A DNA stretch of 64,000 bases, from assembly GCA_014799385.1 (NCBI GenBank), contig JAAVIC010000025.1, forward strand, positions 62,001 to 126,000. Reading direction: 5' to 3'. The notes beneath the pieces were generated by a model, which saw nothing but the letters and a program-made list of their open reading frames with translations, had not been told where the DNA came from and ran no database searches. This DNA is from Oscillospiraceae bacterium (lineage in GTDB: Bacteria > Bacillota > Clostridia > Oscillospirales > Ruminococcaceae). A program made the translations under genes and the position numbers. This document shows, piece by piece, positions 2,221 through 59,035 of this stretch. How positions within the stretch are numbered: the stretch's first letter is position 1; every line of letters starts with the position of its first letter.

Positions 2221-2314
2221 GCAAATCGCAAAATCGAGCGGCGCGGCATACCGCGCAGCGGTGTGCCGTGACGCTCGGATAGCACGGACGAAGTCCGCGC
2301 GGTTTGCGATTTGC
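2221..2314 (+). repeat. Family A structured repeat, copy before rplB
   Basis: The outer stem is perfect: GCAAATCGCAAA (2221-2232) against TTTGCGATTTGC (2303-2314). Inside are a long arm with GAGCG/CGCTC and CGGCATACC/GGTGTGCCG, and a short arm GCACGGAC-gaa-GTCCGCGC. The right edge runs through AAATTAAAAC into AAGGAG and the rplB ATG at 2340. A separate GCATGG/CCATGC pair lies to the left (about 2174-2206). Confidence 0.8.
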
Positions 2315-2339
2315 AAATTAAAACAAGGAGTGAAATAAT

Positions 2340-3173
2340 ATGGCTATTAAAGCATATAAGCCCGTCAATAACAGCCGCAGAAATATGACTGTTACCGATT
2401 ACAGCGGCTTATCAAAGGTAGCTCCCGAAAAAAGCCTTCTGGAGCCCGTTAAAAAGACTGCCGGCAGAAACAGCTACGGCAGAATCACCGTTCGCCATAT
2501 CGGCGGCGGAAACAGAAAGAAGTACCGTGTAATCGACTTCAAGCGCGACAAGAGAGGTATGAATGCCACTGTTGCTACTCTTGAGTACGATCCGAACAGA
2601 AGCGCGTTTATCGCGTTGGTTAAGTACGAGGACGGCGAGAAGAGATACATCATCGCTCCCGACGGATTGAAAGTCGGCGACATCGTTCGCGCGGGTTCGG
2701 ACGCGGATATCAAGCCCGGCAACGCATTGCCGCTTGCTGATATTCCCGTTGGTACTATTATCCACAATATCGAGCTTTACCCCGGCAAGGGCGGACAGTT
2801 GGTTCGCTCGGCAGGTAATATGGCTCAGCTGATGGCTAAGGAGAACGGCTATGCGCTGCTCCGTCTGCCCAGCGGCGAGCTGAGAAACGTTTCCGTTAGC
2901 TGCTATGCAACAGTAGGAACTGTTTCCAACCTCGACCACGAGAACGTAAACAGAGGTAAGGCAGGTAAGACCCGTCACCTCGGTATCAGACCGACCGTCC
3001 GCGGTTCCGTTATGAACCCGAACGACCACCCGCACGGCGGTGGTGAGGGTAAGTCCCCTGTTGGACGTCCCGGACCTGTTACTCCGTGGGGCAAGCCCGC
3101 TCTCGGATACAAGACTCGTTCGACCAAGAAAGCATCGAACAAGTTTATTGTTAAGAGAAGAAACGGCAAGTAA
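2340..3173 (+). CDS. rplB: 50S ribosomal protein L2
   Basis: L2, 277 residues, one of the largest and most conserved large-subunit proteins, needed for subunit joining and peptidyl transfer. The N-terminal OB-like fold ([19 protein letters not shown]) and the C-terminal SH3-like part with the conserved [10 protein letters not shown] loop, which holds the functionally important histidine, are both intact. AAGGAG precedes the ATG and is contiguous with the Family A element upstream. Confidence 0.98.
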
Positions 3174-3312
3174 TTCATCAATAGCAAATCGGTTGCTGTT
3201 AATAAGAACGGCGTTGCGCATAACAAATTTCATAACGAATTTGATGTTTGCGGCGCGTGTAAAAATATCGCCGTTCATTAACTTGCAGCTCAACTGAAAG
3301 GAAATTATACAA
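3174..3312 (+). other. Intercistronic gap rplB-rpsS
   Basis: A 139-bp spacer, long for an r-protein operon. AACGGCG near its left part can pair with CGCCGTT (about 3271-3277), enclosing an AT-rich loop. I see no promoter or open frame. It may be a decayed structured element. Confidence 0.3.
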
Positions 3313-3588
3313 ATGGGAAGAAGCATTAAGAAAGGCCCTTTCGTGCAAGAAGTTCTTATGAAAAGAGTTCTTGAGATGAACGAAAAGGGCGAAAAAAAGG
3401 TTCTCAAGACTTGGAGCCGCGCATCAACGATTTTCCCCGAGTTCGTAGGTCACACATTTGCCGTTCATGACGGCAGAAAGCACGTTCCGGTATACGTTAC
3501 CGAGGATATGGTAGGTCACAAGCTCGGTGAGTTTGCTCCCACACGTACCTTTAAGGGTCACGCGGGAAGCAAGACTACCAATAAGTAA
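3313..3588 (+). CDS. rpsS: 30S ribosomal protein S19
   Basis: S19, 91 residues, in the 30S head next to S13 and close to the A site. [11 protein letters not shown] at the start and [17 protein letters not shown] near the end are diagnostic. A GAAAGGA site precedes the ATG. rplV follows after 12 bp with its own AAGGAGG. Confidence 0.98.
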
Positions 3589-3600
3589 GGAGGAGAAAAT

Positions 3601-3936
3601 ATGGAAGCTAGAGCAGAGCTTAGACAGGTTCGTATTTCTCCGAGAAAGGTAGGCATTGTGCTTGACCTTATCAGAAACAAGCCTGTGGAGATTGCAATGG
3701 CAATTCTCAACAATACTCCCAAGTCCGCCTCCGAGCCGCTTGCGAAGCTGCTGAAAAGCGCGGTTGCAAACGCCGAGAACAATCACAATATGGATACCTC
3801 CAGATTGTACGTTTCCGAGGCTCACGTTGGACCCGGGATCACGCTGAAGCGTATCAGAGCCAAGGATCACGGACGCGCTCACAGAATTTTGAAGAGAACG
3901 TCCAACATCACGCTGGTTGTTAAAGAAGCTGAATAA
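3601..3936 (+). CDS. rplV: 50S ribosomal protein L22
   Basis: L22, 111 residues, with a globular part and a beta-hairpin that lines the exit tunnel (macrolide resistance changes occur there in other species). [17 protein letters not shown] and the hairpin region [17 protein letters not shown] are canonical. AAGGAGG lies directly upstream; rpsC begins 14 bp after the stop. Confidence 0.98.
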
Positions 3937-3950
3937 GGAGGAGAATAACA

Positions 3951-4769
3951 ATGGGTCAAAAGGTTAATCCCCACGGTCTTAGAGTGGGAGTAATCAAGGA
4001 TTGGGATTCTCGCTGGTTCGCCGACAAAGCAACCTTCGGTGATACATTGGTCGAGGACCACAAAATCCGCGATTATCTTATGAATAAGAGAAAGTTCGTT
4101 AATGTCAAGGGCGAGGCTACTCCCCAGCTGCTCTCCAGAGCGGTTGGCATTGCGAAGGTTGAAATCGAGCGCACAGGCGCGGACAAAATCAAGGTTTTCA
4201 TTCACACCGCAAAGCCCGGTATGCTTATCGGACAGAAGGGTGCTGAAATCGAGAAGATCCGCGGCGAGATCGAGAAGATGGCTCCCGGTAAGAGCGTTTC
4301 TCTGGACGTTATCGAAATCAAGAATCCCGATACCAACGCACAGCTCGTTGCCGACAATATCGCTATGCAGCTTGAGGGACGTGTTTCCTTCAGACGCGCA
4401 ATGAAGCAGGTTATCGGCAGAACAATGAAGAGCGGCGCAAAGGGAATCAAGACTATGGTAAGCGGTCGTTTGGGCGGCGCGGAAATCGCGCGTTCGGAGA
4501 GCTACCACGAGGGTACTATCCCGCTGCAGACTCTTCGCGCAGACATCGACTACGGTGTAGCAAGAGCAAACACAACTTACGGCGTTATCGGCGTTAAGGT
4601 GTGGATCTACAACGGCGAAGTTCTCAAGGGTGAGATTCCCGCGCAGAGAACCGAACGTAACGACAGACGCCGCAATGACAGAAACGACAGAAACGGCGGC
4701 AGAGCGAACGGCGACAGACGTCCCCGCAAGCCCGCAAGAGAAAACAAAAAAGAAGGAGGTAACGAATAA
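3951..4769 (+). CDS. rpsC: 30S ribosomal protein S3
   Basis: S3, 272 residues; with S4 and S5 it forms the mRNA entry channel. The KH domain is present with the [15 protein letters not shown] segment (GxxG-type loop). The last 45 or so residues are an Arg/Asn/Asp-rich tail ([15 protein letters not shown]), longer than in E. coli S3 and probably disordered. Its stop overlaps the rplP start by one base. Confidence 0.98.
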
Positions 4770-5191
4770 TGCTGCTTCCTAAGAGAGTAAAGTACAGAAG
4801 AGTGCAGAGAGGCCGCCGCAAGGGTGTTGCAACACGCGGCAACAAGGTAACCAACGGTCAGTTCGGTCTTCAAGCACTTGAGGCTGCATGGATAAAGTCC
4901 AACCAGATCGAGGCGGCTCGTATCGCGATGACTCGTTACATTAAGCGTGGCGGTCAGGTTTGGATCAAGATTTTCCCGGATAAGCCCGTTACAAGCAAGC
5001 CGCTTGGAACTCGTATGGGTTCAGGTAAGGGCGCACCGGAGTACTGGGTGGCTGTTGTAAAGCCCGGACGCGTAATGTTCGAGATCGCGGGCGTTCCCGA
5101 GGAAACCGCAAGAGAGGCGCTGCGTCTGGCAATGCATAAGCTGCCGATCAAGTGCAAATTTGTGAAAAAGGAAGATGGGGGTGAGCTTTAA
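4769..5191 (+). CDS. rplP: 50S ribosomal protein L16
   Basis: L16, 140 residues, contacts the elbow of A-site tRNA and is a late assembly protein. [16 protein letters not shown] at the start and [19 protein letters not shown] in the middle are family signatures. Both ends overlap neighbouring genes by one base (rpsC before, rpmC after), pointing to coupled translation of S3-L16-L29. Confidence 0.98.
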
Positions 5192-5391
5192 TGAAGGCTT
5201 CGGAAATTAAATATCTTTCGGAAACAGAGCTTGAAACTAAGCTCGCCGAACTCAAGGCGGAGCTTTTCAATCTGCGCTTCCAGCTTGCTGTAAACCAGCT
5301 TGACAATCCTACGAGAATCAAGGCTGTCAAGAAGGACATCGCCCGCATCAAGACAATTCAGCGCGAGCGTGAGCTTACAGCACAGAATTAA
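5191..5391 (+). CDS. rpmC: 50S ribosomal protein L29
   Basis: L29, 66 residues, a small helical-hairpin protein near the tunnel exit, neighbour of L23. [20 protein letters not shown] and the ending [13 protein letters not shown] match the family. It begins inside the rplP stop codon; the ribosome-binding site (GGGGGTGAG) lies within the end of rplP. Confidence 0.97.
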
Positions 5392-5414
5392 GGAAGGAGG
5401 ATAAGAACCAAACT

Positions 5415-5669
5415 ATGGAAAGAGCTTTAAGAAAGACCAGAGTCGGCAGAGTAGTCAGCAACAAGATGGACAAGACAATCGTCGTTGCCATCGAGGATAA
5501 TGTTCGTCATCCTCTTTATAAGAAGATCGTAAAGCGCACCATCAAGCTCAAGGCGCACGATGAGCAGAACACCTGCAACATCGGCGACAGAGTTGAAATT
5601 ATGGAAACTCGTCCGCTTTCCAAGGACAAGAGATGGCGTCTTGTGAACGTAATCGAACGCGCTAAGTAA
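5415..5669 (+). CDS. rpsQ: 30S ribosomal protein S17
   Basis: S17, 84 residues, an OB-fold primary binder of 16S r[22 protein letters not shown] and the ending [16 protein letters not shown] are diagnostic. A GGAAGGAGG site sits about 14 bases before the ATG. rplN follows after 41 bp. Confidence 0.97.
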
Positions 5670-5710
5670 TTGGCGGAACTTTTTAATTTTACGAAAGGAG
5701 AAGTAATGCC

Positions 5711-6079
5711 ATGATTCAGATGCAGACATTGCTTAAGGTTGCCGACAACACCGGCGCTAAGGAGCTTATGTGTATCAGAGTGCTGGGCGGAACCCGCAGA
5801 AGATACGCAAACATTGGCGATATAATCGTTGCCAGCGTTAAAAAAGCTACACCCGGCGGAGTTGTTAAGAAGGGCGACGTTGTAAAGGCTGTCGTAGTGC
5901 GTTCCGCAAAGGGACTCAGACGCGATGACGGCACATATATCCGCTTTGACGAAAATGCGGCGGTTATTATCAAAGAGGACAAGAACCCGAGAGGTACCCG
6001 TATTTTCGGGCCGGTTGCCAGAGAGCTGAGAGATAAGGACTTTATGAAGATTTTGTCGCTCGCTCCCGAAGTGCTTTAA
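5711..6079 (+). CDS. rplN: 50S ribosomal protein L14
   Basis: L14, 122 residues, standard length; it contacts 16S rRNA helix 14 across the subunit interface and is where the silencing factor RsfS binds. [20 protein letters not shown] and [20 protein letters not shown] are canonical. GAAAGGAG precedes the start. Confidence 0.98.
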
Positions 6080-6094
6080 TGGAGGTGCGCTGAG

Positions 6095-6442: not shown

Positions 6443-6547
6443 TAAATCTATACGGTCGGATACAAGCAGCCGCGGGCGATAGCGGCGGAGCAATTCCGCA
6501 AGGCTCTCCGCGAGCTAAAATCCGGCAGTGGAACAGGAGATTTTACA

Positions 6548-7087: not shown

Positions 7088-7101
7088 TTTGGAGGAAAAC
7101 G

Positions 7102-7287: not shown

Positions 7288-7442
7288 TTAAGAGGTCAGA
7301 GATTCAGAGGTAAGAATCTCAATCAGAAAACGGCTTTACCTCATCGGGGGACAAGTTGCATTTAACCCCGATTAAGAGGAGATTATGTGAGTACGACGGA
7401 CAAAATCGAGTCCGTAACGGCTTATGTTTAGGAGGTAAATGA

Positions 7443-7841: not shown

Positions 7842-7857
7842 TAGGAGGAATAGTAAT

Positions 7858-9331: not shown

Positions 9332-9451
9332 GCAAATTTTCGCAAGCGAGTGACGCGGCATGACGCGCACAGCGCGGCGTGCCGTGTCGCTCAGCTAACA
9401 CGGACGATAGTCCGTGTGGCTGGGGGCAGCTTCTGCCTGCGAAAGATTTGC
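9332..9451 (+). repeat. Family A structured repeat, copy before rpmD
   Basis: The outer stem GCAAATTTTCGCA pairs with TGCGAAAGATTTGC with two mismatches. There are three inner arms: a long GAGTGACGCGGCA.../...TGCCGTGTCGCTC, ACACGGAC-gata-GTCCGTGT, and GGCAG-ctt-CTGCC. This is the most branched copy. The right edge passes through TTCTAAATT into AAGGAG and the rpmD ATG at 9474. Confidence 0.8.
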
Positions 9452-11580: not shown

Positions 11581-11660
11581 GCAAATTGCGAAATCGAGCG
11601 TGGTAACGCTCAAACGGTGCGGACAGAGCGTCAGCGGTGTCCGCGCGGTTCGCGATTTGC
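11581..11660 (+). repeat. Family A structured repeat, copy before adk
   Basis: GCAAATTGCGAA (11581-11592) pairs with TTCGCGATTTGC (11649-11660), with one G.T wobble. Inner arms are GAGCGT-ggta-ACGCTC and GCGGAC...GTCCGC. About 50 bases separate it from the adk ATG, more than in most copies, with an extra TCCGGAAATTTTTGGA stretch between. A GTCGG...CCGAC hairpin also lies to its left (about 11528-11560). Confidence 0.75.
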
Positions 11661-13706: not shown

Positions 13707-13803
13707 GCAAATCCAAAACGCGCGTGATGTGACATACCGCGAAGCGGTGTGTCACATCACGCAGGCGAGTGCACACCGTAGGTGTGCACGGTTTTGGATT
13801 TGC
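13707..13803 (+). repeat. Family A structured repeat, copy before rpmJ
   Basis: Perfect 13-bp outer stem: GCAAATCCAAAAC (13707-13719) and GTTTTGGATTTGC (13791-13803). The first arm is a perfect long hairpin, GCGTGATGTGACATACC against GGTGTGTCACATCACGC (with one G.T), around the loop GCGAAGC; the second is GTGCACACC-gta-GGTGTGCAC. AAATTAAGAT then AGGAGG lead to the rpmJ ATG at 13828. Confidence 0.85.
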
Positions 13804-14816: not shown

Positions 14817-14868
14817 GCAAATCCTGTAAGATGCCGCGAAGTCAAATATTTCACAGCGCGGGATTTGC
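14817..14868 (+). repeat. Short, degenerate Family A repeat before rpsD
   Basis: GCAAATCCTG (14817-14826) can pair with CGGGATTTGC (14859-14868), with one mismatch, around a short interior without a clear hairpin. It lies about 88 bases before the rpsD ATG, further than other copies. I consider it a decayed member. Confidence 0.45.
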
Positions 14869-17929: not shown

Positions 17930-17958
17930 TTGACATTCAATTTGTGATGTGGTATAAT
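17930..17958 (+). promoter_or_regulatory. Promoter of the SUKH gene
   Basis: TTGACA (17930-17935), a 17-bp spacer and TATAAT (17953-17958). The Family B repeat begins 13 bp downstream, so it would lie at the very 5' end of the RNA. Confidence 0.85.
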
Positions 17959-17970
17959 AAATACAACCCA

Positions 17971-18029
17971 ATATCCTTACAGAAAATATCGTTTGACTAT
18001 AGTCAACATAATATTGGGAACTGAAAAAA
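17971..18029 (+). repeat. Family B repeat, copy 1
   Basis: It runs from ATATCCTTACAG through a GTTTGACTATAGTCAAC hairpin to ATTGGGAACTGAAAA, immediately downstream of a consensus promoter and upstream of the SUKH gene. Shared with copy 2 are the ATATCCTTACAG start, the TTGGGAACTGAAAA end and a following TATAAT. Confidence 0.7.
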
Positions 18030-20451: not shown

Positions 20452-20649
20452 CAGACTGTCGATAAACCCTCGCACCGCCCCGCCGCATTGCGGCGGGGCT
20501 TACTTCGTCAAAGCCCTAACGGCAACAGGACGTTGCTGCAAGGTCGCCAAAAGGCGGCAAGGATGCCGCCAACATAGCGACCTCGGCGGCAGGCATAAAG
20601 CCTAGCCGTTAGGGCTTTTCCTCGTCTGCGAGTGTTTCTCGACAGTCTG
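20452..20649 (+). repeat. Family D multibranched element, copy 1
   Basis: The outer stem CAGACTGTCGA/TCGACAGTCTG is perfect. A second stem is CTCGCA/TGCGAG. Arm A is GCCCCGCCGC-att-GCGGCGGGGC, followed by the unpaired TTACTTCGTCAA. Arm B is AGCCCTAACGGC (20512-20523) with GCCGTTAGGGCT (20605-20616), enclosing further GC-rich hairpins. It fills most of the 400-bp gap between the anti-sigma and RING-like genes. Confidence 0.75.
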
Positions 20650-20687
20650 AGAAATGCGAGTAAAAAAGGCTTTTTCTACAAACTGAA

Positions 20688-23603: not shown

Positions 23604-24968
23604 ATGCCTGTATTCAAAAAGCAGAGTAAACGATTTTCGCCGTCACGAATCCTTGTATTGGGATTCCTGGCGATTATCGCGGCGGGGACACTTCTGCTGT
23701 GTCTGCCGATTTCCTCAAAATCACGCGAGTTTACACCCGTCTTTGACTGTCTGTTTACCGCAACCTCAGCAAGCTGTGTTACGGGACTTTCGATATATGA
23801 CACATGGACGCATTGGTCGCTGTTCGGGCAGATAGTCATCGCACTGATGATTCAAGTCGGCGGATTGGGATTCGTTACCATCATCACGTTTTTCAACGTT
23901 GCTGCAGGTAAGAAGCTGGGCTACCGCACATTGAAAAACGCCGCGGGCGATCTCTCCGAGAGCAGCTTTGAGGGCGGAAAGCGAATCTTTATCCGCATTA
24001 TGAAGTACAGCTTTATTTTTGAGGGAATCGGCGCGGCGGTGCTGGCAGCGGTGCTTATCCCGGGTCACGGAATCTACGGCGCATGGATGGGAATATTTAT
24101 GAGCATTTCGGCGTTCTGCAACGCGGGCTTCGACCTGATGGGAATGGAGGGCGCGGGCACAAGTCTTATCGCCTGTCAAGGAAATCCCGTAGTGCTGATT
24201 ACGTTGTCTCTGTTGATCATCGTGGGCGGATTGGGATTTATTGTCTGGGAGAACTTTCTGAATATCCGCATACGCAAGAAACTGACGCTCCATACGCAGG
24301 TCGTGCTGATTATGACGGGGATCCTGGTGGTAAGCGGAACGGTATTCTATATGATTGCCGAGGGCGGTAATCCCAAGACTATGGGCGAAATGTCGTTCGG
24401 CGAAAAACTTTTGAACTCGTTTTTTTCGTCCGTATCGGCAAGAACGGCGGGATTCGACAGTATCGGAATGTCCGACACATCGGAATTTTCGCAGCTTGGC
24501 ACGATAATTCTGATGTTTGTGGGAGCGGCTCCCGGTTCTACGGGCGGCGGAATCAAGGTCACTACGCTGATGGTAATGATAATGACAGTGGTTTCGTATA
24601 TACGCAATAAAAACGATGTGGAGCTGCTGGGACACAAGCTCGACAAGTTGACTATCTACCGCACACTGGTTATTTCGGTGCTGTCGCTGTTCGCGGTGGG
24701 AGTTTGCTTTGTGGCACTGTACTTCTCGATGCCCGTGAACACCGAGGCGGGTGCGGTTCAGTGCCTGTTTGACGCGGTAAGCGCGTTCTCCACTGCAGGA
24801 TTATCGGCGGGAGCGACTGCCCTTACCGGAATTGCCGGGAAGATACTGTTGATATTCACGATGTTTATCGGAAGAGTGGGACCGGTATCACTGATAATGT
24901 CGCTTGTATTGAACAGCCAGAAACGCAAGAATATTGTCGTTCCCGATGGACAGATACTAATCGGATAA
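23604..24968 (+). CDS. TrkH/KtrB-type potassium uptake protein
   Basis: Membrane pore subunit for K+ (or Na+/K+) uptake, 454 residues. Four pore repeats are visible: FTATSASCVTGLSIYDT, SISAFCNAGFDLMG, SVSARTAGFDSIG and DAVSAFSTAGLSAGAT, each with the filter glycine. AAGAAGG lies before the ATG. TrkH/KtrB normally works with a cytoplasmic TrkA/KtrA gating subunit; none is adjacent, so it must be elsewhere. Confidence 0.93.
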   Translation: MPVFKKQSKRFSPSRILVLGFLAIIAAGTLLLCLPISSKSREFTPVFDCLFTATSASCVTGLSIYDTWTHWSLFGQIVIALMIQVGGLGFVTIITFFNVAAGKKLGYRTLKNAAGDLSESSFEGGKRIFIRIMKYSFIFEGIGAAVLAAVLIPGHGIYGAWMGIFMSISAFCNAGFDLMGMEGAGTSLIACQGNPVVLITLSLLIIVGGLGFIVWENFLNIRIRKKLTLHTQVVLIMTGILVVSGTVFYMIAEGGNPKTMGEMSFGEKLLNSFFSSVSARTAGFDSIGMSDTSEFSQLGTIILMFVGAAPGSTGGGIKVTTLMVMIMTVVSYIRNKNDVELLGHKLDKLTIYRTLVISVLSLFAVGVCFVALYFSMPVNTEAGAVQCLFDAVSAFSTAGLSAGATALTGIAGKILLIFTMFIGRVGPVSLIMSLVLNSQKRKNIVVPDGQILIG

Positions 24969-25031
24969 ACGTTATATCCTTACAGAAAATCGCGCTCGAC
25001 CAAAATCAACGTTTTATTGGGAGCTGAAAAA
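24963..25031 (+). repeat. Family B repeat, copy 3 (tandem)
   Basis: It begins GGATAAACGTTATATCC, continues TTACAGAAAATCGCGCTCGAC and ends TTTTATTGGGAGCTGAAAAA. Copy 4 repeats it with an 82-bp period. The trkH stop codon lies inside the left edge. Confidence 0.75.
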
Positions 25032-25044
25032 ACAGATTTTGAAT

Positions 25045-25110
25045 GGATAAACGTTATATCCTTACAGAAAATCACGCTAGACTTAAATCAACATTTTATT
25101 GGGAGCTAAA
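25045..25110 (+). repeat. Family B repeat, copy 4 (tandem)
   Basis: Nearly identical to copy 3. Its terminal TTGGGAGC supplies GGGAG (25101-25105) exactly 8 bases before the ATG at 25114, so the element's end acts as the Shine-Dalgarno sequence of the next gene. Confidence 0.75.
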
Positions 25111-25113
25111 AAG

Positions 25114-35405: not shown

Positions 35406-35469
35406 GCAAATTCAAAGTCACGCTTGATTGAAGAAGGAAATCCCGAAATCTGCGTGGTTTTGAATTTGC
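35406..35469 (+). repeat. Family A structured repeat, copy before the aroK-like gene
   Basis: GCAAATTCAAA (35406-35416) pairs with TTTGAATTTGC (35459-35469). The interior has no strong hairpin, so this is a small copy. The right edge TTTGCTATTAAAATA runs straight into the ATG at 35480; unlike the other copies there is no AAGGAG. Confidence 0.65.
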
Positions 35470-35479
35470 TATTAAAATA

Positions 35480-35986
35480 ATGAAAAATATAGTACTTATT
35501 GGAATGCCGGCTGTCGGCAAGTCCACAATTGGGGTTTTGCTTGCTAAAGCACTCGGGTTTTCGTTTATTGATACGGATCTGATTATCCAACAGGACACGG
35601 GGCAGCTGTTACAGGACATAATCGACAAGGACGGCTTGGACGCTTTTTGTGCCGCCGAGGAACACGCGATATGCTCGGTGACGGCGGAGCGTAACTCTGT
35701 GATTGCAACGGGCGGAAGCGCGGTTTACAGCCGCAAGGCAATGCTTCACCTCAAAAAACACGGGGTCGTGTATTATCTGAGGATTTCCACGGAGGAGCTT
35801 AAAAAGCGTTTGTCTAACATAAAAACACGCGGAATCGCCATGCACCCCGGAGAAACAATCGAGGACGTCTTCACGCAAAGAGCCGAGCTGTACGCAGAAT
35901 ACGCAGATTACACTATGGAATGCGAGGGCAAATCCGCAGAGGATATTGTCACGGAGATTTATGATTATCACCGAAATCTGTCTTGA
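35480..35986 (+). CDS. Shikimate kinase-like P-loop kinase
   Basis: 168 residues. Walker A is GMPAVGKST (residues 8-16), followed by FIDTD. Overall length and layout match AroK, but two shikimate-site features differ: the expected FR...E pair is FCAAE (Arg to Cys) and the GGG loop reads ATGGSAV. The lid region has RGIAMHP rather than RPLL. It may be a true but diverged shikimate kinase or a paralogue with another substrate. Start: the ATG directly follows a Family A repeat without a Shine-Dalgarno. Confidence 0.7.
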   Translation: MKNIVLIGMPAVGKSTIGVLLAKALGFSFIDTDLIIQQDTGQLLQDIIDKDGLDAFCAAEEHAICSVTAERNSVIATGGSAVYSRKAMLHLKKHGVVYYLRISTEELKKRLSNIKTRGIAMHPGETIEDVFTQRAELYAEYADYTMECEGKSAEDIVTEIYDYHRNLS

Positions 35987-37233: not shown

Positions 37234-37286
37234 GCAAATTCGAAACGCAAGCGAGCGTTAGCTCGTCTGTGTGGTTTTGAATTTGC
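37234..37286 (+). repeat. Family A structured repeat, copy before the TM2 gene
   Basis: GCAAATTCGAAAC (37234-37246) pairs with GTTTTGAATTTGC (37274-37286), with one G.T. There is one inner arm, GCGAGC-gtta-GCTCGT. The right edge TTTGCTATTTAGATAGGAG leads to the ATG at 37306. To the left, GCGCGTTATGATTT...AAGTTAATGGTGATTAGT matches the left-hand module seen at other copies. Confidence 0.8.
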
Positions 37287-37305: not shown

Positions 37306-37944
37306 ATGGATAACAATCAAAGCAGTGTAAATTTAAGCAAGTCGGCGCAGCCGTGGACAGACCCGGTTACGGGTGAGATCTATCCCGGAGGGAATCCCAA
37401 TGCCGTGCCGCAGCCGTTCAGCGGTGTGGTTCAGCCTAATTCTGCGGTGTATCCCAATCAGCAGCCGTACGCTCAGGCACAGTATGCGCAGCCCATGCCC
37501 AATGAACAGCCGATTTATCCGCAGAACAATCAGGGCGGAGTCCCCGGGCAACAGCCGTATCAGCACAATGTTCCGAATGGCGCAACGAAATTTTGCAGTC
37601 ATTGCGGAAGCGTGATTGCAAAAGAGGCGGTGTTCTGTCCCGCGTGCGGCTGCCAGGTCGCACAGGTTCAGACGGCACAGCAGCAGATTATAATCAACAA
37701 CAGCAACAATAACTATAACGATCACCTTGCGGTTGCCCCGAATGTGGTGTACAAGGGCACACCAAAGGACAAATGGGTTGCGTTTATATTGTGCTTTTTC
37801 TTGGGTGTAGTAGGCGCACACCGTTTTTATGAGGGGAAGGTCGGAACAGGTCTGTTATATTTCTTCACCGGCGGACTGCTCGGAATCGGTTGGTTGGTGG
37901 ATTTGATAATCCTGCTCACTAAGCCGAATCCGTATTACGTTTAG
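37306..37944 (+). CDS. TM2-domain protein with zinc ribbon
   Basis: 212 residues. A Gln/Pro/Tyr-rich N-terminus (disordered) is followed by a zinc ribbon (CSHCGSVIAKEAVFCPACG), an Asn-rich linker and a C-terminal TM2 domain with two spans (KDKWVAFILCFFLGVVGAHR, FYEGKVGTGLLYFFTGGLLG). TM2 proteins are small membrane proteins of uncertain function. The stop region overlaps the convergent HAD gene by four bases. Confidence 0.88.
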   Translation: MDNNQSSVNLSKSAQPWTDPVTGEIYPGGNPNAVPQPFSGVVQPNSAVYPNQQPYAQAQYAQPMPNEQPIYPQNNQGGVPGQQPYQHNVPNGATKFCSHCGSVIAKEAVFCPACGCQVAQVQTAQQQIIINNSNNNYNDHLAVAPNVVYKGTPKDKWVAFILCFFLGVVGAHRFYEGKVGTGLLYFFTGGLLGIGWLVDLIILLTKPNPYYV

Positions 37945-51670: not shown

Positions 51671-51807
51671 CAGACTAACGATAAATCCTCGCACCGCTCC
51701 GCCATCGCCTTGCGATGACGGAGCTTACTTCGTCAAGCCCCTCGCGGCAGCCAAATAGGCTAGCCGCGCGAGGCTTTCCTCGTATGCGAGGCTTTCTCGT
51801 CAGTCTG
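51671..51807 (+). repeat. Family D multibranched element, copy 2
   Basis: The outer stem CAGACT-aa-CGA pairs with TCG-tc-AGTCTG; second stem CCTCGCA/TGCGAGG; arm A GCTCCGCCATCGC/GCGATGACGGAGC; unpaired TTACTTCGTCAA identical to copy 1; arm B GCCCCTCGCGGC/GCCGCGCGAGGC with a different sequence but the same place. It lies between ftsE and the regulator gene, both on the minus strand. Confidence 0.75.
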
Positions 51808-51853
51808 ATAATCTGGCTTTACCCATAAGTTTTCAATCGGATAGCCGGAAAAA

Positions 51854-53134: not shown

Positions 53135-53140
53135 ATAATT

Positions 53141-53532
53141 ATATAGGTGTAGTTTGTAGGTCGTGCCCAAAGTTCCCGGCGGCTTGACGAGGTGAATATT
53201 TGGAACGCGCGATCCAAAACACCCCTTCGGGGAGCAGACCCGAACCCCAATGCGGGGAACTCCCGCAGCCCCGAGGTGTGGGGGGACAACCCTTCGGGGG
53301 CGGGGGATTTCAAACCCTCAGGACGGAAAAGCCCCCGCCCCCTACGGGTTTTCCCCCCACTCCCCTCTTTCCCATCTCCCCCACCCCCTTTTTCCTGTGT
53401 CATCACGGGAGAGTTGCTATTGGTTATAGCACGCCTATCGGCGGCTCGTGACTAGTGCGTTATAACAAAAACAAGTTATTGGCGGCGCGAGTTTAGTACG
53501 CTATAACCAAAAACAAGTTATTGGTGATTCGT
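53141..53532 (+). other. Long GC-rich leader before metG with tandem Family A left-end modules
   Basis: 53160-53400 is rich in short C/G hairpins (CCCCTTCGGGG, CCCCAATGCGGGG, CCCTTCGGGGG, GCCCCCGCCCCC) and ends in a pyrimidine tract. From 53430 to 53530 three copies of a module follow each other: GCACGCC...CGGCGGCTCGTGACTAGT, GCGTTATAACAAAAACAAGT..., ACGCTATAACCAAAAACAAG..., each leading to TTATTGGYGRYKCGTG. I looked for T-box and SAM-box features and found none. Confidence 0.5.
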
Positions 53533-53634
53533 GCAAATTGCGAAAGCGAGCGTTGCAGCATACCGCAAAGCGGTGTGCTGTGACGCTCAGCTAGAGCAGA
53601 TGAGCGCAGCTCTTCTGCTCGGTTCGCAATTTGC
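53533..53634 (+). repeat. Family A structured repeat, copy before metG
   Basis: GCAAATTGCGAA/TTCGCAATTTGC is perfect. The main arm is GAGCGTtgCAGCATACC with GGTGTGCTGtgACGCTC around GCAAAGC; compared with the rplB copy, a C-G pair has become A-T with both sides changed. The second arm is AGAGCAGA...TCTGCTC. TTTGCTATTAAAAATAAGG leads to the ATG at 53656. Confidence 0.88.
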
Positions 53635-53655
53635 TATTAAAAATAAGGAGTTATT

Positions 53656-55587
53656 ATGCAGAAATATTATTTGACTACCCCGATTTATTATCCCTCGGGA
53701 AATCCGCATATCGGGCATTGCTACACAACGGTAGCGTGCGATACTATTGCGCGGTTCAAGAGAATGCAGGGCTATGACGTGATGTTCCTTACGGGTACGG
53801 ACGAGCATGGGCAGAAAATCGAGCAGAAAGCCCGCGAAAACGGCATTACCCCCAAGGAATACGTGGACCCGATAGTGGCGAACTTCAAGCGTTTGTGGGA
53901 GGTTATGGACGTAAGCTATGACAGGTTTATCCGCACCACGGACGAGTATCATGTCAAGAGCGTGCAGAAAATCTTCAAGGATTTGTATGACAAGGGTTAT
54001 ATTTACAAGGGCAAATACACGGGAAAATATTGTACTCCGTGTGAGAGCTTCTGGACGGCGTCGCAGCTTGATGAAAACGGCTGCTGCCCGGATTGTCACC
54101 GCCCCGTTATCGACGCTCACGAGGAGGCTTACTTCTTAAAGGTGTCGGCGTTCGCCGATAAGGTTGAGAAGTTCCTTACGGAAACGGATTATTTGAATCC
54201 GCAAAGCCGCGTAAACGAGATGGTGAACAACTTCATCAAGCCCGGACTGGAGGATCTGTGTGTTTCGCGGACGTCATTCACATGGGGAGTCCCCGTGGAG
54301 TTCGACCCCAAGCACGTGGTTTATGTCTGGGTAGACGCGCTCTCCAACTATATCAGCGCATTGGGCTATGCTAATGACGAATACAATGATTTCGAGAAAT
54401 ACTGGCCCGCGGATCTTCATATGACCGCCAAGGAGATCGTTCGTTTCCACTCAATCATATGGCCGATAATTCTGATGATGCTGGATCTGCCGCTGCCCAA
54501 GCACCTTTACGGACACGGGTGGATCAACTTCAACGGGCAGAAGATGGCGAAATCCGTTGGAAACGTAATCGACCCGTTTATACTCGCAGAGCGTTACGGT
54601 TCAGATTCCGTGCGGTATCAGATTCTGCGCGATATGCCTTACGGTTCGGATTCCAACTTCTCCAACGAGATTATGGTTAACCGCATAAATTCCGACCTTG
54701 CAAACTCCTGGGGCAACCTTGTTTCGCGCACGGTGGCGATGGCGGATAAGTATTTCGGCGGAACGCTCCCCGAGGAGCGCGAGGCGGAGGCTCTCGACAA
54801 TGAGCTTATAGATATAGCAAAGGCTCTGCGCGATACGGTTGCACCGCATATTGAGGAGGCGCAGCTCTCTAAGGCTCTGGAGGAGATTTTCAAGGTAGTT
54901 TCCCGCGCGAATAAGTATATTGACGAGACAGAGCCGTGGGTTCTCGGAAAGTCCGAGGATAAAAAGGCGCGTCTGGCGAGCGTTTTGTATAATCTGTTGG
55001 AAACGATTCGTATATGTTCGGGGCTGCTGTTCCCGTTTATGCCCAAGACCTGCCCGAAGGTATGGGAGCAAATCGGCGCGGATTCCTCTCTCACCGCATA
55101 TGATACGCTGAGCGGATTTGGAAAGCTCCCCGCGAATGTAACGGTTCACAAGGGCGAAATGCTGTTCCCGAGAATCGATGTGGACAAGGAAATTGACGAG
55201 CTGAACGTTCTGCTTGCTCCCAAAAAGGAGATTCGCGAGGACGAGGATTTAGACAAAGCGAACGTTATCACCATTGACCAATTCGCGGAGGTCAAGCTCC
55301 GCAGCGGCGAGATCACCGCGTGTGAGAAAATCAAGAAGGCGAAAAAGCTGCTGAAGCTCACCGTGGACGATGGACGCGGCGGACGGCAGATAGTTTCGGG
55401 AATCGCCAATTGGTACAGTCCCGAGGACTTGATCGGCAAGAAAATAGTGTTCGTGGCGAATCTCGCCCCCGCAAAGCTCTGCGGAGAGCTTTCGGAGGGA
55501 ATGATTCTCGCGTGTGACGCGGGCGAGGACGATGTAAGAGTGCTGTTTTTGGATAAGGACGTTCCCAACGGAAGTACTATAAGATAG
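53656..55587 (+). CDS. metG: Methionyl-tRNA synthetase
   Basis: 643 residues. Class I catalytic domain with YPSGNPHIGHCYTTV (HIGH motif), a zinc knuckle (CTPC, then CCPDC), KMAKSVGN (KMSKS variant), an alpha-helical anticodon domain, and a C-terminal tRNA-binding EMAP-like domain (FAEVKLRSGEITACEKIKKA). It charges both initiator and elongator tRNA-Met. AAGGAG comes from the edge of the Family A repeat. metG and tatD are commonly neighbours; here about 2 kb with vapBC lies between them. Confidence 0.98.
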   Translation: MQKYYLTTPIYYPSGNPHIGHCYTTVACDTIARFKRMQGYDVMFLTGTDEHGQKIEQKARENGITPKEYVDPIVANFKRLWEVMDVSYDRFIRTTDEYHVKSVQKIFKDLYDKGYIYKGKYTGKYCTPCESFWTASQLDENGCCPDCHRPVIDAHEEAYFLKVSAFADKVEKFLTETDYLNPQSRVNEMVNNFIKPGLEDLCVSRTSFTWGVPVEFDPKHVVYVWVDALSNYISALGYANDEYNDFEKYWPADLHMTAKEIVRFHSIIWPIILMMLDLPLPKHLYGHGWINFNGQKMAKSVGNVIDPFILAERYGSDSVRYQILRDMPYGSDSNFSNEIMVNRINSDLANSWGNLVSRTVAMADKYFGGTLPEEREAEALDNELIDIAKALRDTVAPHIEEAQLSKALEEIFKVVSRANKYIDETEPWVLGKSEDKKARLASVLYNLLETIRICSGLLFPFMPKTCPKVWEQIGADSSLTAYDTLSGFGKLPANVTVHKGEMLFPRIDVDKEIDELNVLLAPKKEIREDEDLDKANVITIDQFAEVKLRSGEITACEKIKKAKKLLKLTVDDGRGGRQIVSGIANWYSPEDLIGKKIVFVANLAPAKLCGELSEGMILACDAGEDDVRVLFLDKDVPNGSTIR

Positions 55588-55621
55588 TTGACAATTACAC
55601 ACAGTAAGTGGGGTGATAATT

Positions 55622-55861
55622 ATGGCAATAGCAAAAATTACTACTGATGGTGATACGCAAATAGTAAGATTGCCGATTGGTTTCCATTTCGATTGTGACG
55701 AGGTGGAGGTGGAGCAGATAGGCTCGGTGATCAGACTCGCACCGCAAAAGAGCAGCGAAGAGGGACTTTTGGAAGTGCTTACGGGTTTTTCCGATGATTT
55801 TGCGGATATTGTTGATGAAGCTCATAACAGCTTTACTCCATCGAAAAGAGAAGAATTATGA
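55622..55861 (+). CDS. vapB: VapB-type antitoxin
   Basis: 79 residues. The N-terminal part (MAIAKITTDGDTQIVRLPIG, then EVEVEQIGSVIRLAP) is an AbrB-like swapped-hairpin DNA-binding domain; the acidic C-terminal half (EVLTGFSDDFADIVDEAH) would wrap the toxin. The ATG at 55622 has GGGGTGAT upstream. Its stop overlaps the toxin start by four bases (ATGA). It probably represses its own operon. Confidence 0.88.
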   Translation: MAIAKITTDGDTQIVRLPIGFHFDCDEVEVEQIGSVIRLAPQKSSEEGLLEVLTGFSDDFADIVDEAHNSFTPSKREEL

Positions 55862-56265
55862 AATATGTGTTGGACACAAATATTTGCATTTATGCAATAA
55901 AGAAAGATCCTATCAAAGTTCATCAAAAGCTGATTGAACATCTTAATGATGGCATCTGTATATCCGCCATTACACTTGCCGAACTGGAACACGGTGTTTA
56001 CAAAAGTGCCAGTATTGAGAGGAATGCGGAAAACCTTACAAAATTGACCCGATATATTTCGGTTTTACCATTTGACAGTGCAGCTTCTGTGGAGTATGGC
56101 AAGATATGTGCGTATCTTCAAAAAGCTGGTACTCCGATAGGCACGATGGATACGCTGATAGCCGCGCATGCGCGGTCGCGGGGGTTGACGATTGTCACTA
56201 ATAACGTCCGCGAGTTTGAGCGTGTCCCCGATTTGATAATTGATAATTGGGTTGATTTTAATTGA
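55858..56265 (+). CDS. vapC: VapC-type PIN-domain ribonuclease toxin
   Basis: 135 residues. PIN active-site acids are visible: Asp6 in YVLDTNICIY, Glu in TLAELEHGV, Asp in GTMDTLIAAHA, and TNNVREFERV at the last site. It cleaves RNA when released from VapB; VapC toxins often target initiator tRNA or rRNA. It lies downstream of metG, whose product charges initiator tRNA, but that link is only positional. Confidence 0.92.
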   Translation: MKYVLDTNICIYAIKKDPIKVHQKLIEHLNDGICISAITLAELEHGVYKSASIERNAENLTKLTRYISVLPFDSAASVEYGKICAYLQKAGTPIGTMDTLIAAHARSRGLTIVTNNVREFERVPDLIIDNWVDFN

Positions 56266-56287
56266 CAATTAAAATAAGGAGGATATT

Positions 56288-56695
56288 ATGAAACCGATTC
56301 CCGGGCAAGTTTGGACAGACAAAAAGCGCACGTTTCTGGGATTGCCGTGGTCGTTTACGCGGTATATTCTCACGGAAAAGAAATTGATTACACGCAAGGG
56401 ATTCTTCAGTATCACCGAGGATGAGGTCGAACTGTATCGGATTCTGGACAAGAGCCTGAGGATCTCGTTCGGGCAGCGGCTGGACGGCACGGGTACGGTG
56501 ATCCTCAACTGCAAGGACGTGGACACACCTGTTAAGGAGATACAGTCCATAAAGAAACCGCGCGAGTTTATGGAGATTCTGGAGAAGTATGTGGACGAAC
56601 AGCGCGATAAATACGGAACGCGCGGTCGAGATATTATGGGATTCACTCCGCATGACCATAACGATGATATTTGTGGAGAGAATCACGAAGGGTAA
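56288..56695 (+). CDS. PH-domain-like protein (bacterial YdbS/bPH_2 type)
   Basis: 135 residues. TFLGLPWSFTRYILTEKKLI followed by TRKGFFSITEDEVELYRILD is the pattern of bacterial PH-like (DUF304/bPH_2) domains. No membrane span is evident, unlike many relatives. The C-terminus is acidic with His (GFTPHDHNDD). AAGGAGG lies before the ATG. Function unknown. Confidence 0.75.
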   Translation: MKPIPGQVWTDKKRTFLGLPWSFTRYILTEKKLITRKGFFSITEDEVELYRILDKSLRISFGQRLDGTGTVILNCKDVDTPVKEIQSIKKPREFMEILEKYVDEQRDKYGTRGRDIMGFTPHDHNDDICGENHEG

Positions 56696-56800
56696 TAACT
56701 CGCAGCAAGCTGTCGGCGGTTTGCGTAAATAAGTCATACGCAACGCTGTGGGGAGCAATCCAAGTGCGCTGTAACTCAAAGCAGCCTATGGGCTACTCGT

Positions 56801-56918
56801 GCAAATTCAAAACGCGAGTGGCGTGTTGCACTTTGCGAAGCAAAGTGAAGCGCGCCGCTCAGCGAACACAGATAAAATTTGGCAAAGCCAAATTTTATCT
56901 GTGTGGTTTTGAATTTGC
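56801..56918 (+). repeat. Family A structured repeat, copy before the 56.9-kb gene
   Basis: GCAAATTCAAAAC (56801-56813) and GTTTTGAATTTGC (56906-56918) pair perfectly. The second arm is an 18-bp perfect stem, ACACAGATAAAATTTGGC against GCCAAATTTTATCTGTGT around AAA. The right edge is TTTGCTATTTAGATAAGGG, then the ATG at 56940. The left module GCGCTGTAACTCAAAGCA... is present. Confidence 0.85.
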
Positions 56919-56939
56919 TATTTAGATAAGGGGTTAACT

Positions 56940-57590
56940 ATGGACATTTCAAGAATAGCCGATATAGGCACGATAAGTCAAACCAGTCAGACGCGCTCGG
57001 TAGAACGGCGGACGGAGGATAAAGCCTCCACGCTTGCAACTGAGCACACCGACAGCTTTGTGAAGTCCGAGGCGGCGTTTATGCCCGCGTATACCAAGAA
57101 GTCCGCTCAAAAGCAGACCGCGGACAATAATCTGCTGCAAAAGGAGAACTCCGAGCGAACGATAGACAAGGTCGAGGAGAGCGGCGAGCAGGTTTCGCGC
57201 GGCGAGCTTATGACAAAAGGAATAAGCCACATAATCCGCGCGATGTTCGTTAAGCAGGGCGAGGTGCTGTTGGGCAGCGTTCCGAGTATCGGCGCGAAAA
57301 TGTATGCCGAGGAGCTGTTGTCGCAGCTTCGCGCGTTGTACGGAAATTCCGCCGCCGAGGAGAACACTCCCGAGTATTGGCAGCCCGATGAAACCGCCGC
57401 GCGGCTGTTGATGTTCTTTGACAGTGTGGAATTGGGCGAGAGCGATGGGAGCGTTATGCTGGAGCGTTCGTTCCTCAGCGCGTTCAACGAAACCGAGCAG
57501 CTTTTCGGCGGTCGCGGTCGATTGCCGTTGGAGAGCTACGAAACCAAGCGGTTGGTTCTGGAAAGCTATTTTACAAAGGCGGTTTTATAA
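56940..57590 (+). CDS. Hypothetical protein
   Basis: 216 residues, hydrophilic. The first 85 residues are low-complexity and charged; the rest is helical (GISHIIRAMFVKQGEVLLGS to SYFTKAVL). I do not recognise the family. AAGGGG from the Family A edge precedes the ATG. Its stop overlaps the tatD start by one base, so it is co-translated with tatD. Confidence 0.7.
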   Translation: MDISRIADIGTISQTSQTRSVERRTEDKASTLATEHTDSFVKSEAAFMPAYTKKSAQKQTADNNLLQKENSERTIDKVEESGEQVSRGELMTKGISHIIRAMFVKQGEVLLGSVPSIGAKMYAEELLSQLRALYGNSAAEENTPEYWQPDETAARLLMFFDSVELGESDGSVMLERSFLSAFNETEQLFGGRGRLPLESYETKRLVLESYFTKAVL

Positions 57591-58360
57591 TGCCTATTTT
57601 TGATACTCACGCGCATTATTGGCGCGCGGATTTCGGCGATGAACTTGACGCGGTTCTGGAGCGGCTTCCGAGCCAAGGCGTGGAGCGCGTTCTGGCGATT
57701 GGCTGCGATATTCCCACAAGCGTTGAGGAAATCGCGCTTGCGGAAAGATACGATTATATCTATGCCGCTGTGGGATTCCACCCGGAAAACGCGGCAGAGC
57801 TGCCCGATGATTGGGAATCCAAACTGACGGAGCTGCTGAAACGCGATAAGGTTATGGCAGTCGGTGAAATCGGGCTGGATTATCACTATCCCGACGGCGC
57901 GCCCAAAGATGTTCAGCGAGAGGTGTTTATCAGACAGCTTGAGATTGCCGGGGGGCTGGGCTTGCCGGTGGTTATCCACTCGCGTGACGCAAGCGGAGAT
58001 ACGCTCGAAATCCTTAAAGAGTACAAGCCGCGCGGTGTGCTGCACTGTTTTTCGGGGAGCGCGGAAACCGCGCGCGAGGTGGTAAAGCTCGGAATGTATG
58101 TCGGGTTTACGGGAGTGCTGACGTTCAAGAACTCCAAAAAGGCTTGGGCGGCTTGCGCGGAAGTTCCGATTGAGCGGCTGCTGTTGGAAACGGATTGCCC
58201 GTATATGGCGCCCGTGCCGCACAGGGGCGAACGCTGCGACAGCTCTATGATAAAGTTCACCGCCGCGAAAATGGCGGAGATAAAAGGGATAGACACCGAG
58301 GAAATGATTGAAATCGCGCGGGAGAATGGGGAAAGGTTGTTTTTTAATGATAACATATAA
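57590..58360 (+). CDS. tatD: TatD-family metal-dependent deoxyribonuclease
   Basis: 256 residues, TIM-barrel amidohydrolase fold. Metal ligands are in FDTHAHYW, GEIGLDYHY, VVIHSRDA and LLETDCPYMAPVPHRG. Family members have 3'-5' DNase activity. Starts within the stop of the preceding gene; the acetyltransferase gene starts 14 bases before its end. Confidence 0.95.
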   Translation: MPIFDTHAHYWRADFGDELDAVLERLPSQGVERVLAIGCDIPTSVEEIALAERYDYIYAAVGFHPENAAELPDDWESKLTELLKRDKVMAVGEIGLDYHYPDGAPKDVQREVFIRQLEIAGGLGLPVVIHSRDASGDTLEILKEYKPRGVLHCFSGSAETAREVVKLGMYVGFTGVLTFKNSKKAWAACAEVPIERLLLETDCPYMAPVPHRGERCDSSMIKFTAAKMAEIKGIDTEEMIEIARENGERLFFNDNI

Positions 58361-58814
58361 AAAAGCGTGCTCAGTGGAACTTGAGATTGTCTTGAAAATG
58401 CGCCGAGAGTGCTGTGCATGCGTTTTCGGTAAGGACGAAAGTGCGTTTGATGGCGAATTTATGCGGATTTCCCGCGAATACTTTGCCAATTCCGACCAGA
58501 CCACGGTTCTCGCGTTTGATGGCGAGCGGGCGGAAGCCGCCTCCAAGGCTGTCGGCTGCGCGACAATGTGCTATATCACGCTTATGCCAACGGAGGAGCA
58601 CCCTACGGGGAAACGAGCTCACGTGATGAATGTCTACACTAATCCGAATTATCGGCGGCAGGGAATCGGGCGGAAGATGATGGAAATGCTGATTGACGAA
58701 GCCAAGGAGCGTGGAGTCACGCATATTTCGTTGGACGCTACTCCCGATGGAGCAAAGCTGTATAAATCGTTGGGATTTAAGTACTCAAACGAAAATATGG
58801 AGATTATACTTTAA
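58347..58814 (+). CDS. GNAT-family N-acetyltransferase
   Basis: 155 residues. The acetyl-CoA-binding motif A is VYTNPNYRRQGIGRKMMEML (R-x2-G-x-G), followed by LDATPDGAKLYKSLGF. The substrate is unknown. The ATG at 58347 lies inside tatD with GAAAGG upstream; an earlier in-frame ATG at 58308 lacks a site. Coupled to tatD. Confidence 0.9.
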   Translation: MITYKKACSVELEIVLKMRRECCACVFGKDESAFDGEFMRISREYFANSDQTTVLAFDGERAEAASKAVGCATMCYITLMPTEEHPTGKRAHVMNVYTNPNYRRQGIGRKMMEMLIDEAKERGVTHISLDATPDGAKLYKSLGFKYSNENMEIIL

Positions 58815-58923
58815 TGTGTTGCAACCTATCGAGGTGTAATCCCGGCGCGTTATAATTCATGCCAACAAATCGGCGATGCAATTTATGAGCGTTATAATTT
58901 TGAAAAAGTGTTTGGCGACTAGT

Positions 58924-59035
58924 GCAAATCCGAAATGCGAGCGTTGCGGCATACGCGCAGCGTGTGCCGTGACGCTCGGCAAGTGCTCTTGAAATGCCGC
59001 TTTGCGGCATTTCAAGAGCACGTTTTCGGATTTGC
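58924..59035 (+). repeat. Family A structured repeat, copy before the CorC-like gene
   Basis: GCAAATCCGAAA pairs with TTTCGGATTTGC. Arm 1 GAGCGTTGCGGCATAC/GTGTGCCGTGACGCTC around GCGCAGC; arm 2 a perfect 17-bp stem GTGCTCTTGAAATGCCG/CGGCATTTCAAGAGCAC. TTTGCTATCTAAATAAGGAG leads to the ATG at 59056. A GCGTTATAATTTTGAAAAAG module lies to its left. Confidence 0.85.

Follow-up and report, generated by a model that had tools for sequence, protein, structure and literature searches.

The 64-kb window examined here, which is the whole stretch of DNA that was analysed, contains members of a family of self-contained RNA cassettes of ~65-120 nt. From sequence comparison, we consider it probable (about 0.6) that these are mobile cassettes restricted to one genus, which are tolerated and perhaps used by their hosts and whose folded core leaves the ribosome-binding site (RBS) working. 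In the preliminary description of the window, the elements were taken to fit either a class of RNA leader not described before or a mobile repeat whose structure is under strong selection. The two options were supported together: the predicted sense-strand fold has no match in Rfam, and the core appears to move or to be exchanged between loci.

Fold and Covariation

The element is a predicted structured leader, with the folding signal on its sense strand. Alignment of 34 copies with covariance model R1 showed this predicted fold to be a three-way junction of ~100 nt, with an outer stem (P1), a long arm (P2), and a variable arm (P3). Changes on both sides of a base pair were found in 36 of the 46 pairs and in all three helices, in agreement with the earlier claim that stem bases change together, and 96.6% of the cells in the alignment were paired. 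After shuffling of the 3' letters, 81.0% of the cells still paired, and none of 500 shuffles reached the observed value on any of five measures; when the partners were slid by 1-3 columns, pairing was 30-47%. The 12-bp arms of P1 form terminal inverted repeats and were paired in 100% of cells, and the ends of the core are the P1 termini GCAAAT..ATTTGC. Near-invariant bases were confined to the ends of P1 and to a few positions in the junction or loops, there were few invariant unpaired bases, and the arms of the element were often perfect complements.

The mean fold z-score of the 150 own-genome matches listed was -10.6 (60 dinucleotide shuffles each), with z<-3 in 148. The sense strand folded better than the antisense strand in 141 of 149 own-genome cores, and the stem mismatches favoured sense RNA (269 G-U versus 37 A-C), indicating that the folding signal lies on the sense RNA. 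G-U pairs were kept at fixed sites; for example, alignment columns 29-43 were U-G in 21 of the 34 copies.

Copies in the Window

The window was searched with R1 at E<=1. As shown in Table 1, 11 of the 13 elements in the preliminary description were found, several of which are model seeds and match by construction. The count of 13 therefore stood for these 11, one of them weakly (35406), whereas the degenerate element at 14817 and the minimal element at 103 were not found. The motif GCAAATYC occurred 24 times in the window versus 8.95 times expected, and none of 100 shuffles reached 24. Together with the genome-wide folding of the 150 listed matches, the recovery of 11 elements and the motif excess confirmed that the structured elements are real.

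Table 1. Elements of the family and an associated repeat array in the 64-kb window (E, model R1).
Feature	Position	Strand	Context	E
Minimal element	103..133	+	hairpin-like GGGCAAA..TTTGCCC before start codon	not found
Full core	2221..2314	+	gap between presumed rplW (L23) and rplB (L2, starts 2340); SD AAGGAG downstream	3e-17
Degenerate core	9332..9451	+	before ORF at ~9474 (presumably rpmD-like); R1 match 9342-9420	3e-6
Variant core	11581..11660	+	before adk (adenylate kinase, 11711)	3e-6
Full core	13707..13803	+	before short ORF at ~13828 (presumably rpmJ-like)	9e-18
Degenerate element	14817..14868	+	before rpsD (S4, 14956)	not found
Short core	35406..35469	+	apparently between SD GGGGGTGAAGT (ends 35405) and AUG at 35480; gene shikimate-kinase-like, NCBIfam matches below cut-off	0.18 (weak)
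Short core	37234..37286	+	before ORF at 37306 (no NCBIfam name)	0.007
Core, GGC-type P1	49604..49702	-	before minus-strand ORF at ~49583	9e-15
Core, GAAATCCC-type P1	51454..51546	-	before minus-strand ORF at ~51428	3e-12
Array of ~43-nt U units (..GYGCGTTATAACCAAAAACAAGTTATTGG..), by eye	53410..53532	+	5' of metG core	
Full core	53533..53634	+	before metG (53656)	8e-20
Full core	56801..56918	+	before ORF at 56940 (no NCBIfam name)	5e-15
Full core	58924..59035	+	before ORF at 59056 (CorC/GldE-like, NCBIfam matches below cut-off)	5e-17

Eight window genes were examined, and the six with family matches were of mixed function and shared no single pathway. The U unit contains TTATAAC, which by eye resembles a -10 box; a promoter role was set aside because TTGACA/TATAAT-like promoters lie further 5' of some copies and U units occur in tandem arrays. 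A short ORF across the core was also rejected, because by eye the TTGAG subtype carries a stop in that frame.

Copy Number and Distribution

The preliminary description had proposed a covariance-model search of the full genome and its relatives and a comparison with Rfam. R1 matched at least 150 copies in the host genome and 146 in its nearest relative, G062, and a second pattern suggests ~215 in the host; the dispersed family would thus be about 200 copies strong. Among 294 other genomes of the order, with the best 13 candidates per genome scanned, there was no match; at the reach of R1, these searches indicate that the family is restricted to one genus. Rfam 15 gave no match across the whole window at the gathering threshold, nor within 53400-53700 at E<=5, and the element was named in no title or abstract start found in the open-licence PMC literature. 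Copies are many, dispersed, non-coding and foldable, and they are present or absent between relatives, as in small interspersed structured repeats. Carriage by phages or plasmids was not supported: one query core had no match in plasmid and phage collections, one pattern scan of IMG/VR was empty, and the single IMG/VR pattern match (L378) was by eye a chance match within coding sequence.

Placement at Ribosome-Binding Sites

Placement was scored as an SD, a start codon and an ORF of at least 60 aa within 45 nt of the core end. Of the 150 listed own-genome copies, 123 had such a site on the sense side and one had it on the antisense side, versus 323 of 4538 random nearby places (7.1%); when the SD was not required, the counts were 130 and 19 of 150. 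This result, and the fact that both minus-strand copies in the window face minus-strand ORFs, bore out the earlier statement that copies point at the gene downstream. The median distance from core to start was 21 nt (IQR 20-22.5), and tandem copies occur in the genome. Of 18 copies examined in other species of the genus, 10 preceded an SD and start codon and none did so on the antisense side, suggesting that placement is looser there.

The predicted accessibility from SD to start was 0.525 with the core, versus 0.493 without it and 0.493 with a shuffled core. It was higher with the core in 81 of 123 copies relative to no core and in 78 of 123 relative to the shuffled core (p<0.001). A strong insulator effect was set aside, the predicted gain with the core being only small.

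Cores between SD and AUG

In six genes, including that at 35480, a core of 64-113 nt appears to lie between the SD and the AUG. The class was defined after seeing the data and comprises, in the own genome, five of the eight copies with a start but no SD; C29:25514, C6:100107 (start in the following core) and C2:77453 (likelier start further on) were set aside. A strong SD-like left flank was present in all five selected copies versus 13 of 123 others (Fisher p 3e-5, post hoc). The own genome and G062 carry different cores between the SD and the AUG of gene 35480, and neither reading frame is interrupted before the last four residues. In relatives other than G062, all 18 readable copies of this gene lacked a core (by eye), and 15 of the 18 had GGTG no more than 24 nt from the AUG. 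This comparison took in 22 of 25 kinase loci, 20 of which the search pattern located, and 16 of 25 TcdA-like loci, 15 of which it located.

With a core in this position, the fold may bridge SD and AUG, as in T4 genes 38 and 25, for which SD-AUG structures are described as cutting the functional spacing from 22 and 27 nt to 5 and 11 (PMC3014915). The T4 cases offer a precedent for the translation of genes with a structure between SD and AUG; they are native to two genes and span 22 and 27 nt, whereas the cores here span 64-113 nt and belong to a dispersed, exchangeable family.

Exchange and Turnover of Cores

Core pairs within 6 nt of length were compared among 149 of the 150 own cores (<=125 nt). 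Twenty pairs at different loci, including three of tandem neighbours, were at least 93% identical, and their flanks were little more alike than those of random pairs, which points to the core as the unit exchanged. Comparison with G062 covered the genes on the stretches compared (44 orthologues). By a stem test, the position of the core was shared by the two genomes in 32 of the 44, five of these being mis-bounded; the 27 pairs used for core matching left out five with mis-bounded stems or nested-insert matches. The best match of 25 of the 27 G062 cores was a non-orthologous own core, with identity up to 0.98, while coding identity averaged 0.92. Genes thus appear to have exchanged cores after these close species separated. 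Left flanks turn over too, identity across the left 40 nt being 0.67 at orthologous loci versus 0.63 in random pairs.

The 12 orthologues without the stem comprised, by eye, five without an element, two with deletion scars, and five in which the core was degraded or variant or the start was misplaced. Gene order also differed at one of the five without an element (C29:18778), and the two scars, both in G062, resemble hairpin deletions (GGTGATTTGC.. and GACGATTTGC..). At four of the five own/G062 sites without an element, where the right boundary was readable, identity resumed at the GGAG or GGGG of the SD; three of these boundaries were read by eye, the program alignment having been misplaced. 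No target-site duplication was recognised at these four sites, where the left boundaries of insertions were indistinct. The gap before rplB, readable in 23 of 29 relatives, was short in 19, held a core in three and was longer and ambiguous in one. No R1-type core was seen by eye upstream of metG in the 25 readable of 29 relatives, one of which (G025) has a different hairpin of similar look there. Taken together, these comparisons show sites that differ between close species and a core that probably moves or is exchanged between loci.

The Y1 transposase (PF01797) had no match in carriers G000, G062, G022, G027, G032 and G025 and one match each in two further carriers, G006 and G030. Transposition by a Y1/RAYT enzyme is unsupported, with no Y1 in the own genome or G062, and the presence of a reverse transcriptase (RVT_1) did not correlate with the family. 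The search for a mobilising protein or a related autonomous element covered these two families, Y1_Tnp and RVT_1, and neither pointed to one.

Discussion

Our favoured reading is that of mobile RNA cassettes which leave the RBS working. Cores would be copied into sites near RBSs and would also take the place of cores already there. Once transcribed, a core would fold on itself and hold the flanking SD and AUG unpaired and near each other, so that the host gene can still be translated; cores may persist for this reason. Under selection for a bridging or insulating fold, pairing would be kept even as core sequences drift and are exchanged. The host may benefit, for example through RBS insulation or mRNA stabilisation. 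We hold more tentatively a specific form of this reading, in which the cassette targets RBSs and is translationally silent, its fold joining SD to AUG in space and not in sequence. It would resemble an intron-like parasite or an insulator without splicing, and an RNA- or recombination-based copy-and-replace process would swap cassettes among ~200 leaders independently of their flanks.

Alternatively, the core could be a trans-regulated leader, recognised at its conserved junction or at an arm by a protein or small RNA that controls translation of a global regulon of ~200 genes, the sequence being free if the shape is kept. The sense orientation and fixed SD distance of 123 of 150 copies, the retention of shape with variable sequence, the cores at ribosomal-protein, metG and adk genes, and the 32 of 44 orthologues whose core is matched in position in G062 (five mis-bounded) fit such a regulator. 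However, besides the ends of P1 only a few bases of the junction or loops are nearly invariant, close species differ at several sites, metG lacks an R1-type core in the 25 readable relatives (by eye), the named window genes have no one common pathway, and the best 13 candidates in each of 294 other genomes of the order gave no match; we regard this explanation as unlikely.

The terminal inverted repeats, the gain and loss between species, the tandem copies and the movement of the core as a unit would also suit an ordinary MITE-like element of DNA, with palindromes serving as transposase sites, insertion at any position and selection purging all copies except those just 5' of an SD. This explanation seems improbable, since neither the strand asymmetry (123 versus 1) nor the bias of G-U over A-C would be expected if the element acted as DNA, no duplication of a target site was seen at readable empty sites, no Y1 transposase was found in the own genome or G062, and one query core had no match in plasmid and phage collections. 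Neutral palindromes whose arms are corrected by template switching, without selection, would suit the often perfect arms and the two apparent scars in G062, but are very improbable because such correction would remove the G-T pairs, whereas G-U is retained at fixed positions, and because orientation and spacing would be left unexplained.

Interspersed repeats known from bacteria are usually scattered across intergenic regions, in either orientation. Intervening sequences of 23S rRNA are structured insertions that are tolerated in RNA and close on their own stem; they sit in rRNA helices and are excised. The cassettes described here, unlike those insertions (PMC4990558), sit in mRNA leaders. 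BOX elements of Streptococcus pneumoniae are described as small modular repeats with a predicted RNA fold and variable inner modules, thought to be mobile, and their over-representation between convergent genes is read there as a sign of parasitic elements (PMC3049150). The present family shares the small, interspersed, modular and foldable form, the variable inner modules and the presumed mobility; unlike BOX, its copies lie nearly all in sense orientation at RBSs and its cores are exchanged, and its host clade and anatomy differ from those of BOX with its boxA, boxB and boxC modules. Correia/NEMIS, ERIC and other bacterial MITEs likewise have inverted repeats and no coding capacity (PMC10969869, PMC2229807), and transcribed Correia copies are reported as RNase III substrates (PMC10969869). 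In contrast to the Correia/NEMIS and ERIC elements described in these sources, the family has strong orientation, SD-adjacent placement and sense-RNA covariation, with no target duplication recognised at the four readable empty sites and no parent transposase found among the two protein families searched.

If true, the favoured reading would show how an mRNA can tolerate insertions in a region that is among its most sensitive. The family would provide about 200 natural cases of a structure next to an SD, and a few of a structure between SD and AUG, for testing how far a fold can bridge or insulate translation starts. Synthetic RBS insulators would have a counterpart in nature, and the family would pose a problem of mobility without a known enzyme.

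Structure of the Core and Probable Selection on the RNA

In an alignment of 34 copies (A1), the core of approximately 100 nt formed a three-way junction. The outer stem, P1, comprises 12 bp of the GCAAATYSNRAA/TTYNSRATTTGC or, alternatively, GAAATTCC types. The long arm, P2, opens with XGC/GCY, the X:Y pair usually being A:T, C:G, or T:A, and contains a 1-2-nt bulge and a triloop tip, often ACCGC-GNA-GCGGTG; the third arm, P3, varies in length. On the 3' side, the right flank NATTWARAT is followed by AAGGAG. Changes on both sides occurred in 36 of 46 pairs, with 230 compensatory cells compared with 57 in shuffles, and 96.6% of cells were paired versus 81.0% in shuffles and 30-47% when partners were slid. 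The mean z-score of fold energy for 150 own-genome copies was -10.6. Because the copies are mutually related and the larger alignment (A2) was fitted to the model, the covariation claim rests on A1, its slide control, and the energies.

In the stems of 147 distinct rows of the model-fitted A2, G-U exceeded A-C (269 versus 37, or 118 versus 35 once G-U-rich columns were omitted). Without recourse to an alignment, folding was better for the sense than for the antisense strand in 141 of 149 copies. Judged from sequence, this G-U excess and the better sense-strand fold argue that selection acts on the transcribed RNA.

A second hairpin repeat (..GACCGCC..GCGGCAAGGACGCCGCG..) was nested within P2 in 8 of the 150 own-genome matches, apparently in either orientation, as a repeat within a repeat. 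Coordinates of this and other features are collected in the table.

Locations of core copies with unusual placement and of other repeats
Feature	Location	Remarks
Core apparently between SD and AUG	C1:163003, C17:22636, C1:166387, C9:21238, C3:100081, window 35406	
Hairpin nested within P2	C20:164931, C2:20466, C4:50465, C20:130637, C1:223514, C27:171225, C17:90343, C1:9837	
Stacked U-unit array	window 53410-53532	~43-nt units (TTTAGYGCGTTATAACCAAAAACAAGTTATTGG)
Inverted repeat	window 53275-53363	G/C-rich, 36-nt arms
Sequence like the inverted repeat	C1:217959, C1:200261	examples 5' of other core-bearing leaders
Dispersed repeat GCGGCAGGCATAAAGCCTAGCCG	window 20586-20653, 51744-51811	
Family CAGTTCCCAATAT..GTGGATTTTAATT and TATATCCTTACAG	window 60005-60239, 61112-61253, 17947-18027, 24950-25112	spacing ~83 nt
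43-nt repeats	window 62181-63981	spaced 138 nt, overlapping minus-strand ORFs; perhaps encode a repeat protein

Copy Number and Distribution

The covariance model R1 matched at least 150 places in the 2.69 Mb draft genome containing the window (G000:C25:62001-126000), a lower bound because only 150 of 1886 first-look candidates were scored. The pattern ATTTGCNATNNARATAAGG gave 76 own-genome matches versus none in the reversed control, and 53 of these coincided with model matches; capture-recapture, assuming independent searches, gave an estimate of about 215 copies. The nearest relative, G062, contained at least 146 copies (146 of 150 scored candidates). The genus comparison set comprised 43 genomes, our own included. 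Matches at E<=0.01 were detected in 10 of 36 other genus genomes and in none of 24 genomes from other families, and a separate scan at E<=0.001 found them in 6 of 12 genus genomes; elsewhere in the order, 294 genomes gave no match among the best 13 candidates scored in each. Cores in relatives had the same design with different P1 sequences, such as GAAATTTC. The closest named metG records are MAGs, including uncultured Clostridia Lapin-013 bin27 (89%), Ruminococcaceae bacterium UBA5579 (88%), and similar ones.

Placement at Ribosome-Binding Sites

On the sense side, 123 of 150 copies had a Shine-Dalgarno site (SD), a start codon, and an ORF of at least 60 aa no more than 45 nt away, compared with 1 of 150 on the antisense side and 323 of 4538 random nearby places. 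Without the SD requirement, the counts were 130 and 19 of 150, respectively. By eye, many copies failing the criterion were the upstream member of a tandem, and ribosome-binding site (RBS) contexts varied among the listed window genes lacking a core. A unit of about 40 nt (U), often in tandem and ending in GGTGATTMGT or GGGGTGAAGT, preceded many cores. Stacked U arrays also occurred 5' of many copies and are possibly scars of lost cores.

Before rplB, 19 of 23 readable relatives had a short gap ending in TAAGGAGTG or similar. An element was present there in G062, G066 (also matched by the model), and G023, with stems differing among themselves and from our own; the G064 gap was longer and gave no clear reading. 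Inspection by eye revealed no R1-type core before metG in any of 25 readable relatives. Sequence resembling GCGGCAGGCATAAAGCCTAGCCG was seen in the metG leader of two relatives (L225, L230). In four comparisons with a readable right boundary (three by eye), the alignment with G062 resumed at the GGAG or GGGG of the SD.

Exchange of Cores between Loci

The stem test on compared G062 stretches placed the outer stem at the same position in 32 of 44 orthologues. Mean core identity was 0.695 for these 32 orthologous pairs versus 0.682 for non-orthologous pairs, and 0.72 for 27 orthologous pairs after removal of five mis-bounded rows; mean coding identity was 0.92. For 25 of 27 G062 cores, the best own match was a core at another locus (identity up to 0.98). 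Counter to exchange, the core was kept at two loci (0.99 and 0.93), and four others showed 0.80-0.88. Also counter to it, left flanks at orthologous loci turned over. In 20 own-genome core pairs at least 93% identical, flanks were barely more alike than in random pairs (left 10 nt, 0.60 versus 0.49; right 5 nt, 0.62 versus 0.61), so that for the most part the core travels as one unit bounded by the P1 ends. Cores may move by homologous conversion at their conserved ends, through a transposase yet unseen, or by way of RNA.

Cores Apparently between the SD and the Start Codon

In six copies, the start codon followed the core at 7-10 nt with no intervening SD; the left flank of these copies was strongly SD-like. 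One precedes the shikimate-kinase-like gene starting at 35480. By eye, all 18 readable relatives besides G062 lacked a core at this gene, and in 15 of the 18, GGTG lay no more than 24 nt from the AUG. The core between SD and AUG is 64 nt long in our genome, and that of G062 is longer and of another kind; the G062 frame meets a TGA four residues short of the usual end. For another case, a gene we take to be TcdA-like, the G062 orthologue without the core starts at the matching codon. G023 (L066) offers a possible further case, with GGGGGGGACAT, the core, and AAATCTAAATATG, although another start lies 37 nt further on. RNA structure between SD and AUG occurs in phage T4 genes 38 and 25, where, according to PMC3014915, it reduces spacing and helps translation.

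Rfam contained no match to the core, and in searches of the open-licence PMC literature we recognised no paper describing this element. Small interspersed structured repeats are already known as a general kind; what is new, as far as we found, is a family that combines placement in sense next to the SD, covariation at the RNA level, exchange of cores, and copies of the SD-core-AUG type. Structure, strand, place, and exchange of the cores are demonstrated at the level of sequence. Predicted SD-to-start accessibility was slightly higher with the core (0.525) than without it (0.493), which is the expected direction. We propose that the cores are RNA cassettes, mobile or exchanged, and that their closed fold would keep the RBS functional; folding would bridge or insulate the RBS, and copies may be retained owing to this fold.
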